Origin: Bacillota bacterium
GTDB lineage: Bacteria; Bacillota; SHA-98; UBA4971
Reading direction: 5' to 3'
Length of the DNA: 47,659 bases
Assembly: GCA_029551185.1 (NCBI GenBank)
Contig: JAKPFY010000210.1
Span: 1-47,659 of the forward strand
In this document: in pieces, positions 3,302-32,890 of the stretch
Numbering within the stretch: position 1 is the stretch's first letter
How the letters are laid out: each line of letters opens with the position of its first letter
Notes under the pieces: generated by a model
What the model was told of the DNA's origin: nothing
Databases searched by the model: none
The model's input: only the letters and a program-made list of their open reading frames with translations
Made by a program: the position numbers and the translations under genes

Positions 3302-4375
3302 TTATTTAATTTCGTCAATACTTCTTATAATGGCTTCCCCTACTTCATCGAGGGGCACTATCACATCTGCCAGTCCTCTTTCAATTACAGCCTTAGGCAT
3401 TCCGTAAATAACACATGTGGACTCATGCTCTGCTATGGTCTTGCCTCCTGAAGCCTTAATTGCGGCCATGCCTTCGGCTCCGTCTCTACCCATCCCGGTG
3501 AGCACTACACCAATTAGCTTATTGCCATAGACGTCTGCCGCTGACTCCATGGTATTGTCAATAGCAGGCCTCACACCGTTCCGCGGTGGAGCACCGGAAA
3601 GACGCACCTTCCCATTTGCTTTAACAACCATATGGTATCCGCCCGGTGCAACAAGAGCCTTGCCCTTTTCAATCCCATCGCCTTCATCAGCTTCTTTAAC
3701 CTCAATTTGGCATGCATTATTAAGCCTTTTTGCAAGCGACTTTGTAAATCCTGCAGGCATATGCTGAACAACAAGGAGCCCTGCGGGAATATCCGCAGGC
3801 AGAACCGGAAGGACCCTGCTAAGAGCTGACGGCCCCCCTGTGGATGTGCCTATTACCACTACAGCGTTACCATGTTCCCATCTGCGGGGCGGAGATTCCC
3901 CGAGCGTTTTCAACTGACTGAGGTTCATTACAGTCTTTTCAGACTGATATCGGGCCTTCTGCGGCCGCAGCCTGGCTTTTGCTGCCAGTTTGACTTTTTT
4001 TATAAGCATATCGCGGATCTCATCTACACTCAATACAATAGAACCTGACGGTTTAGGCACAAATTCTACAGCGCCTATTTCCAAAGCCTCAAGAGTAATA
4101 TCAGCGCCTTCCTGTGTCAACGCACTTAACATAACAACAGGAGTAGGAATTTCTCTCATTATGATCTTCAAGGCTTCCAGGCCGTCCATTACAGGCATCT
4201 CAACATCCAATGTTATGACATCCGGTTTCAGGCTTCGGGCTTTCTCAACTCCTATCGCGCCGTTTCTTGCTACATCCACAACTGTTATGTCCGGATCCGC
4301 ATTTAGCATATCCGAGATTATTTTCCTCGTAAAAGCGGAATCATCAACAACTAACACCCTAATAGGACTTGACAC
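3302..4375 (-). CDS. cheB: Protein-glutamate methylesterase/deamidase CheB
   Basis: CheB removes receptor methyl groups and deamidates receptor glutamines once phosphorylated by CheA. Residues 1-125 form a receiver domain with the acidic pair D11-D12 and phospho-acceptor D57 in TLDVEMPVMDG. Residues from about 165 form the esterase domain with S178 in GTSTGGPSAL, H205 in QHMPAGFT and D298 in TGMGRDGAEG, the expected catalytic triad. The linker is lysine/arginine-rich. It starts at GTG 4375, 18 nt after the cheY stop. Full-length at 357 residues. Confidence 0.97.
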   Translation of the reverse strand: MSSPIRVLVVDDSAFTRKIISDMLNADPDITVVDVARNGAIGVEKARSLKPDVITLDVEMPVMDGLEALKIIMREIPTPVVMLSALTQEGADITLEALEIGAVEFVPKPSGSIVLSVDEIRDMLIKKVKLAAKARLRPQKARYQSEKTVMNLSQLKTLGESPPRRWEHGNAVVVIGTSTGGPSALSRVLPVLPADIPAGLLVVQHMPAGFTKSLAKRLNNACQIEVKEADEGDGIEKGKALVAPGGYHMVVKANGKVRLSGAPPRNGVRPAIDNTMESAADVYGNKLIGVVLTGMGRDGAEGMAAIKASGGKTIAEHESTCVIYGMPKAVIERGLADVIVPLDEVGEAIIRSIDEIK

Positions 4376-27952: not shown

Positions 27953-28321
27953 CTAGAGGCCTGCAACCCTCATTGGATCGATCGTGACTGTTATGCCACC
28001 GATTTTTACCTCTTCGTCATAGCACTCTACGTCTACACCGCGCTTTGCGCAAAATTCTATGCAGTTATCAGCGATTCTCTGAGTCTTCTCAAGCACCCAC
28101 TCAATTGCCTTGTCCACTTGCTTGGGATCCTCTGCCATCTTCTGGGCTTTCGCCACTGCCTTCCAAATCTGGTCATTAGCGTTTTCGACTTTCTTCTCAA
28201 CTAACTCATACGCAGCCTCACCCGATGGAGGCCCACCCTTGGCTTCGCACAATGCGATACCGGCAAACAACACTATTACCAGTACAGTCACTAAAGCAAC
28301 AGTCGTTCGGGATCTTCTCAT
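27953..28321 (-). CDS. Small secreted protein of unknown function under a c-di-GMP riboswitch
   Basis: A 122-residue protein with a signal peptide (MRRSRTTVALVTVLVIVLFAGIALCEA) and no standard lipobox. The mature part is mainly helical (YELVEKKVENANDQIWKAVAKAQKMAED), with three cysteines near the end and a final stretch VKIGGITVTIDPMRVAGL that looks like strands. I do not recognise the family. ATG 28321 has GGGAGG 9 nt upstream. The leader contains a GEMM riboswitch 130 nt away. It is followed by the cupin-HD-GYP gene, so the two form a likely c-di-GMP-regulated operon. A surface, adhesion or signalling role is possible but not shown. Confidence 0.75.
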   Translation of the reverse strand: MRRSRTTVALVTVLVIVLFAGIALCEAKGGPPSGEAAYELVEKKVENANDQIWKAVAKAQKMAEDPKQVDKAIEWVLEKTQRIADNCIEFCAKRGVDVECYDEEVKIGGITVTIDPMRVAGL

Positions 28322-28343
28322 GACGTCTTACCTCCCTTTACAA

Positions 28344-28444
28344 ACGTCGTATTTCCCCTCAGCCCTTATAGGCTTAATCACCTGCCGCCCGGTTGCAAGC
28401 AGGTGATTGGCGCAACGAATGAAACTGAGAGTTTCATACGACGT
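28344..28444 (-). promoter_or_regulatory. Expression platform of the c-di-GMP riboswitch
   Basis: Between riboswitch and gene a 9-bp long-range pair (ACGTCGTAT at 28344-28352 with ATACGACGT at 28436-28444) encloses two hairpins: GAAACT/AGTTTC (28421-28426 with 28430-28435) and a perfect 10-bp stem AATCACCTGC/GCAGGTGATT (28376-28385 with 28398-28407). The outer pair ends 7 nt before the ribosome binding site. No T-run follows the stems. The fold may control translation or RNA stability; the mechanism is inferred. Confidence 0.5.
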
Positions 28445-28452
28445 CTGAACCC

Positions 28453-28539
28453 ACCGGCAACCTGGCAGTCATAGGTGCGTTTCACCTTTAGACCCATGGC
28501 TTTGCGTCGCTTCCTTTCGAAAGCTTTGCCTTTATCGGT
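28453..28539 (-). ncRNA. Cyclic di-GMP-I (GEMM-I) riboswitch aptamer
   Basis: The minus strand carries the aptamer's conserved blocks in order: ACCGATAAAGGCAAAGC, a GAAA tetraloop within CTTTCGAAAGGAAGC, GACGCAAAGCC, GGGTCTAAAG, CTATGACTGCC and AGGTTGCCGG. The ends pair as ACCG/CGGT to form P1. In alignment with the Vc2 aptamer, the base corresponding to G20 is G, which favours c-di-GMP over the cGAMP-selective variants. A Rfam search (RF01051) would be decisive. Confidence 0.93.
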
Positions 28540-28583
28540 TAAGGTTTAACTGGATTATGTCATGATAGCAAATGCTGCTAATC

Positions 28584-29048
28584 TCAGTTTCGCCATACTT
28601 TTAGATTTTCCTCCTTAGATCGACCAATATTGGAAAATTTGCTCGTAATTCTCATGGCTATGGCTCGTGAATTTTTCTCGCCAGGGCACGCCTTGCGTGT
28701 AACCTCACGCACCTCGAAGGGAATAATGGCAGCATCGAGCCATTTCGCATAAAATGGCAAGCTGAGGTAATCGCGATCACCTATGAAGGTAATATTCGAA
28801 AGCCTGGGCAAAAGACTTAAATCCACGCCTATATAGCCTATAAACAGAAAGTGCCAGTTCGGCCTTGAGACTGCCACACGCACCACGAGGTCCAAGTCCA
28901 CCCAAGTAGTGACAGCTCCCCAGAATCCGATGAGCTTTCTATTCTTGGCCGCGCCGGTCTTAAGAAGCGCTGCAATCTCAATAGGGCATGGTAGATCGTA
29001 CGACAGGTCACATGTGGTGCGGTCTCTGGCGATGTAGAAAATAATCAA
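28584..29048 (-). pseudogene. Glycosyltransferase remnant
   Basis: The frame holds KLIGFWGAVTTWVDLDLV, RPNWHFLFIG and LPRLSNITFIGDRDYLSLPFYAKWLDAAIIPFEVREVTRKACP, the middle of a GT4-type glycosyltransferase (the usual form is LIGYxGA..RPDWxFVLIGP..LPNVxFLGPxPYxxLPxYLxxxDVAIIPF). The nucleotide-sugar binding motif after this segment, normally EYLAAGKPVV, is missing, and the frame turns into unrelated sequence. The N-terminal acceptor domain is reduced to about 45 residues. The only start is TTG with no ribosome binding site. It is best called a decayed or truncated gene. A C7 tract (29084-29090) lies upstream. Confidence 0.72.
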
Positions 29049-29116
29049 AACACGGCAAATAGATTATGGTGTCCACAAAGACACCCCCCCATCGGATCGG
29101 ATCGCGGAGCCGGTGC

Positions 29117-29641
29117 TCACATTGGTGTCTCAGCCGGCATCAGAGCAATTAATGTAATAATCTCGTCTTGTGTCACGATTGTCTTGATTTGAACAGGACC
29201 ACCGAACATGGGGCCGGATGGCGTATCCCAGACAGTAGCCGTCAGGAAAAGCTCAGCTTCAGCTTGCATACCTTTGCGAAATCCGACATTCGGCAAATCA
29301 GCGAAGGTCGAAACCGCAAGTTCCATTACAGTAAACCCTACCAGGCCAGAAGCCATCTTATAGGTAACCGCAAATTCAAGAGTTCCCACGATAATAACCC
29401 GGACACCTTTCCCTTTCTTTGCCGGCACAACCTGTGCCCGCACCCGGATGCCGTCCTGTGTCGGCCTAACGCATATCACCTGCTTACTTGAAGGAACTAC
29501 AGTGATAGGCGCTCGTACAAAAACGTCAGTCCAAACCGTACCTACGATCACGTCAGCCTCCACCGGCACTCCGGTAGGAATAGAAGGAGCCGCGCCGATT
29601 TTTATGATATTTTGCCGGTTAACTGCCATGGATGTAAACAT
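29117..29641 (-). CDS. Hypothetical protein, possible SPOCS (DUF3794)-like domain
   Basis: A 174-residue protein without signal peptide. The central part, near VFVRAPITVVPSSKQVICVRP and GVRVIIVGTLEFAVTYKMASG then VMELAVSTFADLPNVGF, resembles the SPOCS fold of Bacillota spore and surface proteins, which shares a GxxxxxVxYxxxxxxxxxxxxxIPFSTFIDxP pattern. The match is weak and made by eye. ATG 29641 has GGAGG 6 nt upstream; an in-frame start at 29656 adds five residues. It follows the glycosyltransferase fusion and may be its partner. If the SPOCS guess is wrong it remains an unknown beta-rich protein. Confidence 0.45.
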   Translation of the reverse strand: MFTSMAVNRQNIIKIGAAPSIPTGVPVEADVIVGTVWTDVFVRAPITVVPSSKQVICVRPTQDGIRVRAQVVPAKKGKGVRVIIVGTLEFAVTYKMASGLVGFTVMELAVSTFADLPNVGFRKGMQAEAELFLTATVWDTPSGPMFGGPVQIKTIVTQDEIITLIALMPAETPM

Positions 29642-29791
29642 AAGCCGCCTCCGCACGCAGTCCCTTCTGTAAGGTCGCAGACTTCATCCTACAACTAACT
29701 GTAAACCGACCGGTCACCGAAGAACAGCGTGCTCAAGAGAATCTACCTGTAGCTGATCCCTGCCTCAACTCCTTGCTGTTTTCAGACCCAT

Positions 29792-31843
29792 TCAAGTAAA
29801 TGTATCCTCGATTACCCTTGCCCATTGGCACTTCCACCTTTCAAGACTGAACACTTGTGACACCTCGCGCGCCGTATTCCCCAAACGCAAGCGCTGTTCC
29901 TGATCATCAATGAGTTCACAAAGGACATTGATCAGATTCTGCACTGTAGGTTTGATAAGGCGGCCGTTATAGCCGTCTATGATAAGATCTGAAAGTCCCC
30001 CTATAGTGCCTGCGATCACGGCACATCCTGCTCCCATTGCCTCGAGACAGGCAAGGGAAGTCCCTTCTGTTGACTTCGATGGGATGAGGGCGATATCCAT
30101 ATTACGGTATACCCACGGCATCAACCCCGGCGGGCGCCAGTAAAAAAAGATCCTGCGGTTTTCGCTTGCCCATCTTACCATGTGACTTTCAAGGGCATCG
30201 TCATGCGCCCGACCGACAAAATGAAACTCCACATTATCATATTCCTTTATCAGCACCTCAGCGGCTTTCGCCGCCTCGTTAATCCCGCGTACTGATGTGA
30301 GACGCCTTGGAAACACAATTCTCACCCGTTCATGTATATCAGGATCGGGAAGAGAACGATACGCAGCGAGATCTACAAAGTTAGGGATATACTCAAACTT
30401 CTGGTTAAAGCCAGGCCACGTAGCAGTCACCCACTGGATCGTAGCAGTATCCACAGAGACAACCTTCCGGACAGCTGCGAGAGCGGTGAACAACCTGCGG
30501 CGCCACTCGCGTCTTGCTTCGCCTCCGCCGAGTGTGGCCTCAAAAGTGGGGTAATCCCAGTAAATACCGTGGGATACACTTATGCTTTTCTCCAACGCCT
30601 GAGGGTACGCAAGAAAAGTGATGAAGTATATTGCGTAGTCTATACCGGTGGCGCGTTCGTGAAAAGAGTGATTAAGGCGGGGCGCTGTCTGGAATTGGGC
30701 ATCCGATTCAGGTATTGACCGCACTGGTACTCCGGGAATGATCTCCCGCTCCCATCCTGTCCCGGCTTGCCACCATTCAACCTCGAACCCCATGTCTACG
30801 AGGAGCTTAGTAAGCTCTGTTCCGTATCGCTCCGCGCCACCATATATTACACGGTTCCCGTCAGAGCTGAAGTGATTTGTTGTGAGCACCCCTACCCGTC
30901 GCTTGGTTCGTCTTGACTGTCGGGACCGGTATCCCCTGCTTGTTTCAGTTGCTTCAGGCGTTGCAGACATTTCTGCTGTCCTCTGCATCTCAGCAGTAAG
31001 AACTAATCCGGGATCCGAACAGGCTTTAGCGCTGCCCGCCTTGCCTGTTGCAGCAAACAGCGAAGTGTACGGAAGCAGCTTCGAGTCATACCACTCCTCC
31101 AACTTAATATCCTGACGCGGTGCCATAATGCTTTCGGTGTGTTTCGATGGAGCACCTCGTACCTGGATTTCCTTGGCCCTGTAGAGCTCGTATTTCGACC
31201 GGTGCTCATCAGCATTGGCCCAGCCCAGATGTTTTACGCGTATATCCGAGTGGAACGTCAAGAGAGGGCCCTGATATTCAATAGGCCACCGCCCAACATG
31301 AATAGGCAAGTCAGGCCACGTAACCCGCTTACCCGGCATGTAGCGCACAAGAAGCCGGACGAATCGGTTCCAGGGGTTCCACTGGCCGTCTACTCTGTAA
31401 TGCGCAAGAGATCCCCAAAAGTCAAAAAGTCGGAATCCCAGGGCATCATATTCTTCCTGATTAATAAGATCTCGCACTTCGTTGTGTATTCTGGGTTCGA
31501 AAAGCTCATCAGCGTCTATTGCCAAAATCCAGTCAGGGTCTGTCTCTTCCACCATATCCCAGAGCTTTGCTCTAAGCTTCCCCTCATGCTTAATGAACAT
31601 AGGCAGAGGATTTCTTTCAAACCTGACAACCTTATGACAGCTTGTGCAGATAGAAGCGGTGTCATCATCAGATGCGTCGTCCAGAACGACGATCTCGTCT
31701 ACCCACAGCAAAAGATCCGCAAGAACCGGTCGAAGATACCTGCCTGCTTCATTTCCAACAACCATCATAGCAGTTAATTTGTTGCCTGATGATTTCCGGA
31801 TAGGCATTGTGCTTTCAGTGTTTCCTACTGAGTCTTCTCTCAT
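29792..31843 (-). CDS. GT2-GT4 glycosyltransferase fusion
   Basis: Two glycosyltransferases are joined in one 683-residue chain. Domain 1 (about residues 25-260) is GT-A, family 2 type: AMMVVGNEAGRYLRPVLADLL, VVLDDASDDDT and DWILAIDADELFE, the metal-binding DAD. A linker (about 265-325) is rich in Ser, Thr, Ala and Arg. Domain 2 (about 330-683) is GT-B, family 4 type: GGAERYGTELTKLLVDMGFEVEWW, the sugar-nucleotide EX7E motif in STEGTSLACLEAMGAG and a Rossmann half IVFPRRLTSVRGINEAAKAAEVL. ATG 31843 has GGAGGTG 5 nt upstream. No signal peptide or membrane segment is seen. The acceptor is unknown; flanking genes suggest a surface protein. Confidence 0.88.
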   Translation of the reverse strand: MREDSVGNTESTMPIRKSSGNKLTAMMVVGNEAGRYLRPVLADLLLWVDEIVVLDDASDDDTASICTSCHKVVRFERNPLPMFIKHEGKLRAKLWDMVEETDPDWILAIDADELFEPRIHNEVRDLINQEEYDALGFRLFDFWGSLAHYRVDGQWNPWNRFVRLLVRYMPGKRVTWPDLPIHVGRWPIEYQGPLLTFHSDIRVKHLGWANADEHRSKYELYRAKEIQVRGAPSKHTESIMAPRQDIKLEEWYDSKLLPYTSLFAATGKAGSAKACSDPGLVLTAEMQRTAEMSATPEATETSRGYRSRQSRRTKRRVGVLTTNHFSSDGNRVIYGGAERYGTELTKLLVDMGFEVEWWQAGTGWEREIIPGVPVRSIPESDAQFQTAPRLNHSFHERATGIDYAIYFITFLAYPQALEKSISVSHGIYWDYPTFEATLGGGEARREWRRRLFTALAAVRKVVSVDTATIQWVTATWPGFNQKFEYIPNFVDLAAYRSLPDPDIHERVRIVFPRRLTSVRGINEAAKAAEVLIKEYDNVEFHFVGRAHDDALESHMVRWASENRRIFFYWRPPGLMPWVYRNMDIALIPSKSTEGTSLACLEAMGAGCAVIAGTIGGLSDLIIDGYNGRLIKPTVQNLINVLCELIDDQEQRLRLGNTAREVSQVFSLERWKCQWARVIEDTFT

Positions 31844-31895
31844 CGCTGCACCTCCGCGTTCCCTCATTACCTTACCTTCTTCTCATAGAGCTACA

Positions 31896-31930
31896 GAGCA
31901 GGGCCGCGCCGATCTTGCACGGCCCTGCTC
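31896..31930. repeat. Perfect 11-bp inverted repeat between two genes
   Basis: GAGCAGGGCCG (31896-31906) and CGGCCCTGCTC (31920-31930) form a stem with a 13-nt loop. It lies between the camelysin-like gene and the glycosyltransferase. No T-run follows on either strand, so it may be an RNA stabiliser or processing site that gives the first gene more product. Confidence 0.7.
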
Positions 31931-31970
31931 GATCATCTATCCCCTTTCATTTCGACCGGCTTAGGTACGA

Positions 31971-32435
31971 TCATACCTGGGTTGCCACGAACACAAAGTC
32001 GACAGAGAGGTCCTTGTTCTGAACCAGGTTGCCGGCATTCGGATCCAGCCCCACGGTAATAGTGACTTCCTGGACCGAAGCAAGTGGCAGTGAACGACCG
32101 GCTGTTGGCTCGTCTACAAGGTTTCTGAGCGGCCCTGTATAAAGAGGGGCGGTAAGCGGCGGGCTTGCCTCCACACTCGCATTGAGCGCGCCTGCCAAAA
32201 CATGTGCCATACTTGCAGTCGTTGGCGGGATAGCTGCCCAGTCCGCCGAAACAAAGTAAAGGCAATCCACATCGCCTACATTTGACACAGCGACCGTGCC
32301 TACGACTGAGGCGCCCGGCAAAAGCGCGGGTGATGCAAGCACTGAGTCCTCAGGTGATATGGCTATGCTTACTGTAGCAGTAAGCACCTGGTTATCTGTA
32401 TTGACAGCACCTCCGGTGAACGTAAATGACGGCAT
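31971..32435 (-). CDS. Camelysin/TasA-like protein without signal peptide
   Basis: The 154-residue protein resembles the camelysin/TasA (CalY, peptidase M73) fold: SVLASPALLPGASVVGTVAVSNVGDVDCLYFVSADW, and the C-terminal VTITVGLDPNAGNLVQNKDLSVDFVFVATQV, whose GNxxQ and FxFxATQ endings are typical. Members are fibre or surface proteins that normally carry a signal peptide. None is present here, and MPSFTFTGGAVNTDN is the first sequence after ATG 32435, which has AAGGAGGAG 7 nt upstream. It could be assembled inside a mother cell, as with spore-coat proteins, or exported by another route. I infer; no enzyme motif is seen. Confidence 0.7.
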   Translation of the reverse strand: MPSFTFTGGAVNTDNQVLTATVSIAISPEDSVLASPALLPGASVVGTVAVSNVGDVDCLYFVSADWAAIPPTTASMAHVLAGALNASVEASPPLTAPLYTGPLRNLVDEPTAGRSLPLASVQEVTITVGLDPNAGNLVQNKDLSVDFVFVATQV

Positions 32436-32815
32436 CCGGATCTCCTCCTTCAGGACGTCGGGGACGCGGCAATAATTGCGGAAATGCATATCTTGCTGCC
32501 TTCAGCAGGTCTAATCTAAACTTGCCTGCTCATGACATGGATGTATCAGCACACACAGAGTGTAATCCGAGCGTAATTCCTCGCATTATATGACTGTGCT
32601 TGATACCGTTCTCCTGCTTATTTGCAAACACGTATTGCCGCGCATGAAGACACATAGATAAGAAACTCCGCAACCGCTGTCCTTTCTACCTCATCTTATG
32701 CGGCCCGCCTAATGAGTGTGATGGACTTACCTGTCTTGCGTTGGTGAGTAACCGGTGGACAAAGGTGTAGTCGAATAGTTATCATTTCAAAGGATAGTAT
32801 CCGTAGCACGTAAGT
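32436..32815. other. 380-bp intergenic region before the camelysin-like gene
   Basis: No gene is visible. On the minus strand, CATATAAT at 32592-32585 could serve as a -10. As CATA-N3-T with AAC 15 nt upstream it could also fit a sporulation sigma-K-type promoter, but the match is loose. No -35 TTGACA is suitably placed. The tRNA-Thr 3' end abuts at 32816. A direct repeat of the tRNA 3' end was sought in this region and not found. Confidence 0.3.
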
Positions 32816-32890
32816 TGGAGCCGGCGGTGGGAATTGAACCCACAACCTGCGCATTACGAGTGCGCCGCTCTACCATTGAGCTACGCCGGC
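32816..32890 (-). tRNA. tRNA-Thr (anticodon CGT)
   Basis: A complete cloverleaf on the minus strand: acceptor stem GCCGGCG/CGCCGGC, D arm AGCTCAATGGTAGAGC, anticodon loop CTCGTAA with CGT at 32858-32856, and a T arm with GGTTCAATTCC. CCA is encoded at the 3' end. It reads ACG threonine codons. Upstream lies a terminator for the MFS gene, so the tRNA must have its own promoter, not identified. Confidence 0.98.

Follow-up and report, generated by a model that had tools for sequence, protein, structure and literature searches.

The window analyzed here is a 47,659-nt stretch of DNA that makes up the whole of contig C21 in a 2.66-Mb draft genome, which the collection scan related to uncultured Bacillota MAGs such as UBA5449, UBA4981 and AS08sgBPME_304. 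On the minus strand a c-di-GMP-I (GEMM-I) aptamer is followed first by the gene of a small exported protein and then by that of a cupin-HD-GYP protein (Table 1). The Rfam search matched the aptamer to RF01051 with 87.1 bits against a gathering cut-off of 35 (E 5.7e-16) and over the full model, positions 1-87; we concluded with near certainty that it is a genuine, complete c-di-GMP-I aptamer. The order aptamer, small gene and HD-GYP gene is kept in four sister species of the same genus (G003, G004, G005, and G006), and the score together with this conserved arrangement excludes chance. An earlier note on this DNA had described a full GEMM-I aptamer, a secreted-protein gene and a cupin-HD-GYP gene in this succession, and all three were recovered here.

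Table 1. Coordinates of the genes and leader features of the riboswitch unit in the window
Feature	Position	Strand	Remark
Conserved upstream block CAAATTTTCCAATATTGGTCGATCTAAGGAGGAAAATC...ATGGCGAA	28585..28640	-	Shared by the whole genus, even by the aptamer-less member
c-di-GMP-I aptamer	28453-28540	-	Full RF01051 match
GACGUC, first copy	28440..28445	-	Candidate switching strand, able to pair with the start-codon GACGUC
Candidate anti-Shine-Dalgarno, A-C-Y-Y-C-C type	28427..28432	-	93% of cells paired, five orthologues
Conserved hairpin AUCACCUGC...GCAGGUGAU	28377..28407	-	Without U-tract; retained in the aptamer-less relative too
Shine-Dalgarno and second GACGUC copy	28322..28335	-	Immediately 5' of ATG
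Exported (pro)peptide or small secreted protein, 122 aa	27953..28321	-	Begins 131 nt 3' of the aptamer
Tail TIDPMRVAGL, candidate mature signal	27956..27985	-	D-P-x-x-V-x-x type tail
Cupin-HD-GYP protein, 316 aa	26965..27915	-	37-nt gap after the small gene

The small exported protein and the cupin-HD-GYP protein

The small protein is predicted to be laid out as a signal sequence, a helical hairpin, a C-terminal beta-hairpin and a tail ending in ...GGITVTIDPMRVAGL. Export of small proteins was judged by our own criterion, in which a hydrophobic core follows a charged start and small residues stand at the cleavage site. The small proteins gave no family above cut-off in Pfam and NCBIfam searches, and Foldseek with the predicted structure returned no match at E < 0.001. 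The long form in the window is predicted to be folded, with pLDDT > 90 over the mature part. Tails of the D-P-x-x-V-x-x type are common to otherwise dissimilar partners in several Bacillota families, and the tail in the window is a candidate for the mature signal; extra constraint on it relative to the rest of the protein was not found in the window genus.

In the 316-aa protein the cupin spans approximately residues 13-107 and the HD-GYP domain approximately residues 126-288. The latter was matched by Pfam HD_5 (PF13487) at E 1.9e-39, the family profile matched PDB 4mcw at E 1e-54, and H171, D172, H200, H223, H224, D228, G229, G231, Y232, P233, and D252 are invariant in the alignment of 37 homologous sequences. 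With this intact motif, the protein should be a c-di-GMP phosphodiesterase. The full HD-GYP motif is shared with the enzymes PmGH (4mcw) and PA4781 (4r8z), whereas the sensor is a cupin in place of the receiver, PAS or GAF domain of known HD-GYP phosphodiesterases; the extra metal ligand of the tri-nuclear HD-GYP enzyme seems to be missing, as judged from residue offset and not from superposition. By sequence the N-terminal domain is a weak cupin match under the cut-off (Cupin_3, E 0.012). The AF2 model (pLDDT 87.8) gave Foldseek matches to HD-GYP structures and cupins, and the N-terminal double-stranded beta-helix matched the ectoine synthase and TM1459 cupins with a target TM of 0.68-0.75. 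None of the histidines in the cupin domain is conserved among the 37 homologues, i.e., the cupin is without metal ligands; this makes a metal enzyme improbable, and that the domain senses a ligand is a fair guess. Two variants of the enzyme were observed in relatives. The HD-GYP protein of one sister species (L121, ∼1237-2187) is without three residues including the otherwise invariant His139, by sequencing error or activity loss, and at L211 (943-3230) two cupin-HD-GYP genes flank a single small exported ORF, the second copy reading HDLGM with loss of the HDxGK lysine.

The leader RNA and its genomic context

The selectivity position of the window aptamer (RF01051 model position 11) is G. This position is G11 in Cd1 and G20 in Vc2, and is described as a selectivity factor between cyclic dinucleotides (PMC9262584), so that c-di-GMP, rather than cGAMP, is the likely ligand. 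The P1 stem carries a compensatory change from A-U to G-C among orthologues. Downstream (3') of the aptamer the leader contains, in order, GACGUC, a pyrimidine-rich anti-Shine-Dalgarno, a strong hairpin, the Shine-Dalgarno, a second GACGUC and ATG. The first GACGUC is invariant in all five aptamer-bearing orthologues and missing from the aptamer-less one, and does not covary. A helix of GACGUC:GACGUC and anti-Shine-Dalgarno:Shine-Dalgarno is able to form in 5/5 aptamer-bearing leaders; its variation across the five orthologues was not above that of shuffles in the covariation analysis. No terminator-like site was found in the window leader. Control is probably translational, given the sequestering helix and the lack of a terminator, while its sign is not given by folding: equilibrium RNA folding left the Shine-Dalgarno mostly closed with or without a forced aptamer, and in 4/5 orthologues it was mostly sequestered regardless of the aptamer. 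Since its exposure hardly depended on the aptamer and there was no terminator, folding was dropped as the decider of ON vs. OFF in the window. The hairpin loop GCAACC (28391-28396) is complementary to GGUUGC in the 3' part of the aptamer, and this pairing is a possible anti-aptamer by analogy with the antiterminator of Cd1, which unfolds the ligand pocket (PMC9262584). The window leader and Cd1 of Clostridioides difficile are alike in a complete aptamer above the gathering score with the c-di-GMP-type G; the platform appears translational here, whereas that of Cd1 is a terminator.

A fifth, diverged related species (G001) has kept the upstream block and the hairpin along with both genes; the aptamer was not found in it and both GACGUC copies are gone. 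This joint loss, a single comparison with a diverged relative, is compatible with the GACGUC pair taking part in switching. The upstream block, of which the window has one copy, is probably a promoter or an upstream leader element; a genome-wide repeat or sigma motif was rejected as there was no enrichment in the genome.

The small gene and the HD-GYP gene likely share a common transcript, because the gap between them is too short for a second promoter and the order is the same in the four sister species. In sister species the riboswitch unit begins 170-350 nt behind a tRNA gene. The tRNA of the window (32819-32890) lies 4.3 kb off the unit, separated from it by a gene for a two-domain glycosyltransferase and by ORFs without assignment, and 28660-32890 is probably an island inserted behind the tRNA. 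The genome has three c-di-GMP-I aptamers. The two others (L005, G000:C56, 2463-2555 and 13893-13941) flank a Tad/Flp pilus operon; one precedes the operon and the other is truncated where the contig ends. Three GGDEF domains were found, therefore c-di-GMP synthesis is expected in the host, and genes for oligopeptide-binding proteins are present as well.

Recurrence of the gene pair and of the riboswitch

The small-protein profile identified genuine relatives from further families of the phylum (L074, L075, L076, L077, L078, and L048/L073). At L074, L075, L076, and L078 a cupin-HD-GYP gene is the next gene after the small one; no riboswitch at these four loci reached the Rfam threshold. The small protein occurs in 12 of 398 sampled genomes of the phylum, a count that leaves out six marginal matches overlapping long ORFs, and all 12 are among the 15 genomes with a cupin-HD-GYP protein (hypergeometric 1.6e-20 over the 398 genomes, uncorrected for relatedness). 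The three genomes without a small-protein match have other small ORFs: at L210 and L211 the HD-GYP gene adjoins genes for other small exported proteins, with VAYIDPPAVYDFD or LTVDPPRLYY at the C-terminus, and L207 has a 79-aa exported ORF.

Full-length homologues (35-45% identical) turned up by the collection scan came from Bacillus, Metabacillus, Cytobacillus, Pontibacillus, Alicyclobacillus, Cohnella, and other genera; most cupin-HD-GYP homologues of Bacilli are 293-345 aa long. By one rule applied throughout, an ORF at these loci counted as exported if it was 24-135 aa long, started between -20 and +40 nt relative to the stop, and had a basic N-terminus and a hydrophobic core free of charges. 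Such an ORF lies ≤40 nt downstream of 44/60 Bacilli cupin-HD-GYP-type genes vs. 0/202 other long ORFs at the same loci (Fisher 7e-37, for loci that are not phylogenetically independent). Some of the pairs overlap by ATGA. Most Bacilli partners are ∼95-114 aa long and end in YIW..V.G..VL.IDPP.P.., and shorter ones were found in Alicyclobacillus (46-57 aa, one of 84 aa), Salipaludibacillus (45 and 51 aa), and Pontibacillus (28, 30, and 48 aa, with the tails VPVPLF, VPIPLFN, and VPVTLFN). The 28-57-aa partners in these three genera retain little except the export signal and the C-terminal tail. The tiny ORFs are under purifying selection (omega 0.06 and 0.10; 7 synonymous/1 nonsynonymous and 8 synonymous/3 nonsynonymous changes in the last 14 codons), and many have a good Shine-Dalgarno before them; the substitution pattern indicates that they are real genes. 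Many cupin-HD-GYP proteins of Planococcaceae are without a partner, and the gene order of the pair differs among lineages while the pair persists. In Halobacillus (L132, 4450-5157) a second, longer exported protein ending in WIDPVRVIGGFH was seen near the pair. We concluded with very high confidence that the exported protein and the cupin-HD-GYP protein form a recurrent gene pair in Bacillota.

A c-di-GMP riboswitch stands 5' of the small gene in four lineages, i.e., the window genus, L048/L073, L207, and L149; L149, from Cohnella, is the sole Bacilli locus at which one was found. The HD-GYP gene is upstream of the riboswitch at L048/L072/L073. L207 has two tandem c-di-GMP-I aptamers before the small gene and a convergent HD-GYP gene, and at L149 a c-di-GMP-I-GGC aptamer (RF03167) lies between an upstream HD-GYP gene and the small gene. 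The aptamer could also control the HD-GYP gene only in the genus of the window. Since the HD-GYP gene is upstream or convergent in the three other lineages, gene order indicates that what the riboswitch recurrently targets is the secreted protein and not the phosphodiesterase. By eye, the L149 aptamer (4007-4133) is directly followed by a run of 12 T and a terminator arm seems to overlap its 3' strand, and L149 is likely an ON switch. At L207 (361-848), where the tandem aptamers precede the 79-aa ORF, the Shine-Dalgarno appears by eye to lie inside the predicted P1 stem, and L207 is likely an OFF switch.

Possible peptide control of the phosphodiesterase

We give an even chance to the reading that c-di-GMP governs how much exported (pro)peptide is made, and that this (pro)peptide probably regulates its partner phosphodiesterase. 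Binding of c-di-GMP to the leader RNA would alter translation of the exported protein, and the amount of the phosphodiesterase may shift too through co-transcription. A C-terminal fragment of the exported protein would be released outside the cell, re-enter through the oligopeptide permease and bind the cupin domain, by which the activity of the HD-GYP phosphodiesterase would be set; the outcome would be a coupling of cell density to the c-di-GMP level. Peptide sensing is our inference, and so are the activity of the enzyme, the processing and re-import of the peptide, its binding to the cupin and the sign of control. This peptide-receptor reading is favored because of the conserved order, the pairing across Bacillota, the tiny signal-plus-tail ORFs and the riboswitches in four lineages, and the cupin fold without conserved histidine and the GGDEF and oligopeptide-binding genes of the host also count for it. 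The predicted fold of the long forms counts against it, since a mere precursor needs no fold, as do the lack of extra tail constraint in the genus, the partnerless Planococcaceae, the varying gene order, the lack of predicted ligand-dependent exposure of the Shine-Dalgarno, and an unspecific tail correlation. Tail-cupin co-evolution was rejected as not specific, with partial correlations of 0.18 for the cupin and 0.23 for the HD domain. More tentatively, the pairs may represent a Bacillota-wide peptide signaling in which the cytosolic receptor itself is a c-di-GMP phosphodiesterase and c-di-GMP riboswitches have been repeatedly recruited to the peptide precursor.

The predicted compact fold of the long form and the hairpin YIW..V.G..VL.IDP conserved in Bacilli would also suit a folded extracellular or cell-wall protein, i.e., a surface or biofilm factor made on c-di-GMP, with a phosphodiesterase that resets c-di-GMP without sensing the protein; the Tad pilus operon behind another c-di-GMP-I riboswitch of the same genome points the same way. 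We consider this unlikely, though worth serious attention: the 28-57-aa partners are too small for the fold, yet they are kept beside the phosphodiesterase under purifying selection. The earlier note had proposed a feedback circuit through which c-di-GMP determines how much of its degrading enzyme is made; as weighed here, the secreted protein would be a passenger in it. The riboswitch, the short gap and the gene order allow this in the window genus; in three other lineages, however, the riboswitch precedes the small gene alone, and one sister species retains both genes without the aptamer. Enzyme feedback is improbable on these grounds, and we ranked it below the exported protein as the regulated product because the possible control of the HD-GYP gene is confined to the window genus. 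The same note spoke of an unknown secreted effector. A secreted protein is indeed predicted, and it emerges as the constant companion of the cupin-HD-GYP proteins, in many cases shrunk to a tiny precursor of an exported peptide; the second signal suggested for the cupin may be the exported peptide itself. A membrane microprotein, whose uncleaved N-terminal segment stays in the membrane and recruits or tunes the HD-GYP enzyme, would match the smallest forms (28-30 aa), in which a Lys-rich start and a hydrophobic core are followed by a short tail, but it is very improbable, as the positive N-terminus predicts that the conserved tail is outside the cell, away from the enzyme, and most forms have a cleavage site of the A-x-A type (by eye). 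Adjacency by chance or shared ancestry alone has a negligible probability: pairs in related species are not independent, but the 202 control ORFs gave no exported neighbor and the pair persists though its order differs between lineages.

The peptide quorum sensing known from Bacillota works through receptors with TPRs. RRNPP systems are defined by a small precursor of 10-100 aa exported through Sec, a cytosolic receptor of 250-500 aa, adjacent genes and TPRs (PMC10075063). The pairs described here resemble Rap-Phr, NprR-NprX, PlcR-PapR, and AimR-AimP in adjacent genes that may overlap (37-nt gap in the window, 44/60 in Bacilli), in a small precursor with a predicted export signal and a conserved C-terminal tail, and in receptor size (∼300 aa and cytosolic in RRNPP, 316 aa here and inside the defined range). 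The TPRs are absent and in their place are an N-terminal metal-less cupin and an HD-GYP output, so the pair is not an RRNPP system by membership. Unlike RRNPP, the precursor is sometimes longer than 100 aa (122 aa in the window and 28-114 aa in Bacilli vs. the RRNPP propeptide range of 10-100 aa; PMC10075063), possibly folded and sometimes encoded upstream. By analogy, the pair may work like RRNPP, the cupin sensing the peptide and the HD-GYP domain giving the output. RpfR-type quorum-sensing phosphodiesterases would follow the same logic if the phosphodiesterase here is directly regulated by a cell-cell signal; they bind the DSF fatty acid through a PAS domain, whereas the signal chemistry, the sensor fold and the catalytic domain are different here.

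The aptamer and the HD-GYP protein are new members of known families. Among the open-access papers searched, we found none describing the cupin-HD-GYP and peptide pair. It would be new, if true, for a phosphodiesterase to serve as the cytosolic receptor for an exported peptide, and peptide quorum sensing and c-di-GMP would then be linked by one protein; a ligand would be given to the cupin-HD-GYP proteins and a function to their small unannotated neighbors. Should cupin-HD-GYP proteins sense exported peptides, these peptides would directly control c-di-GMP turnover across many bacilli and clostridia, among them cultivable genera. Even without peptide sensing, the recurring c-di-GMP riboswitches place an uncharacterized exported family in c-di-GMP physiology.
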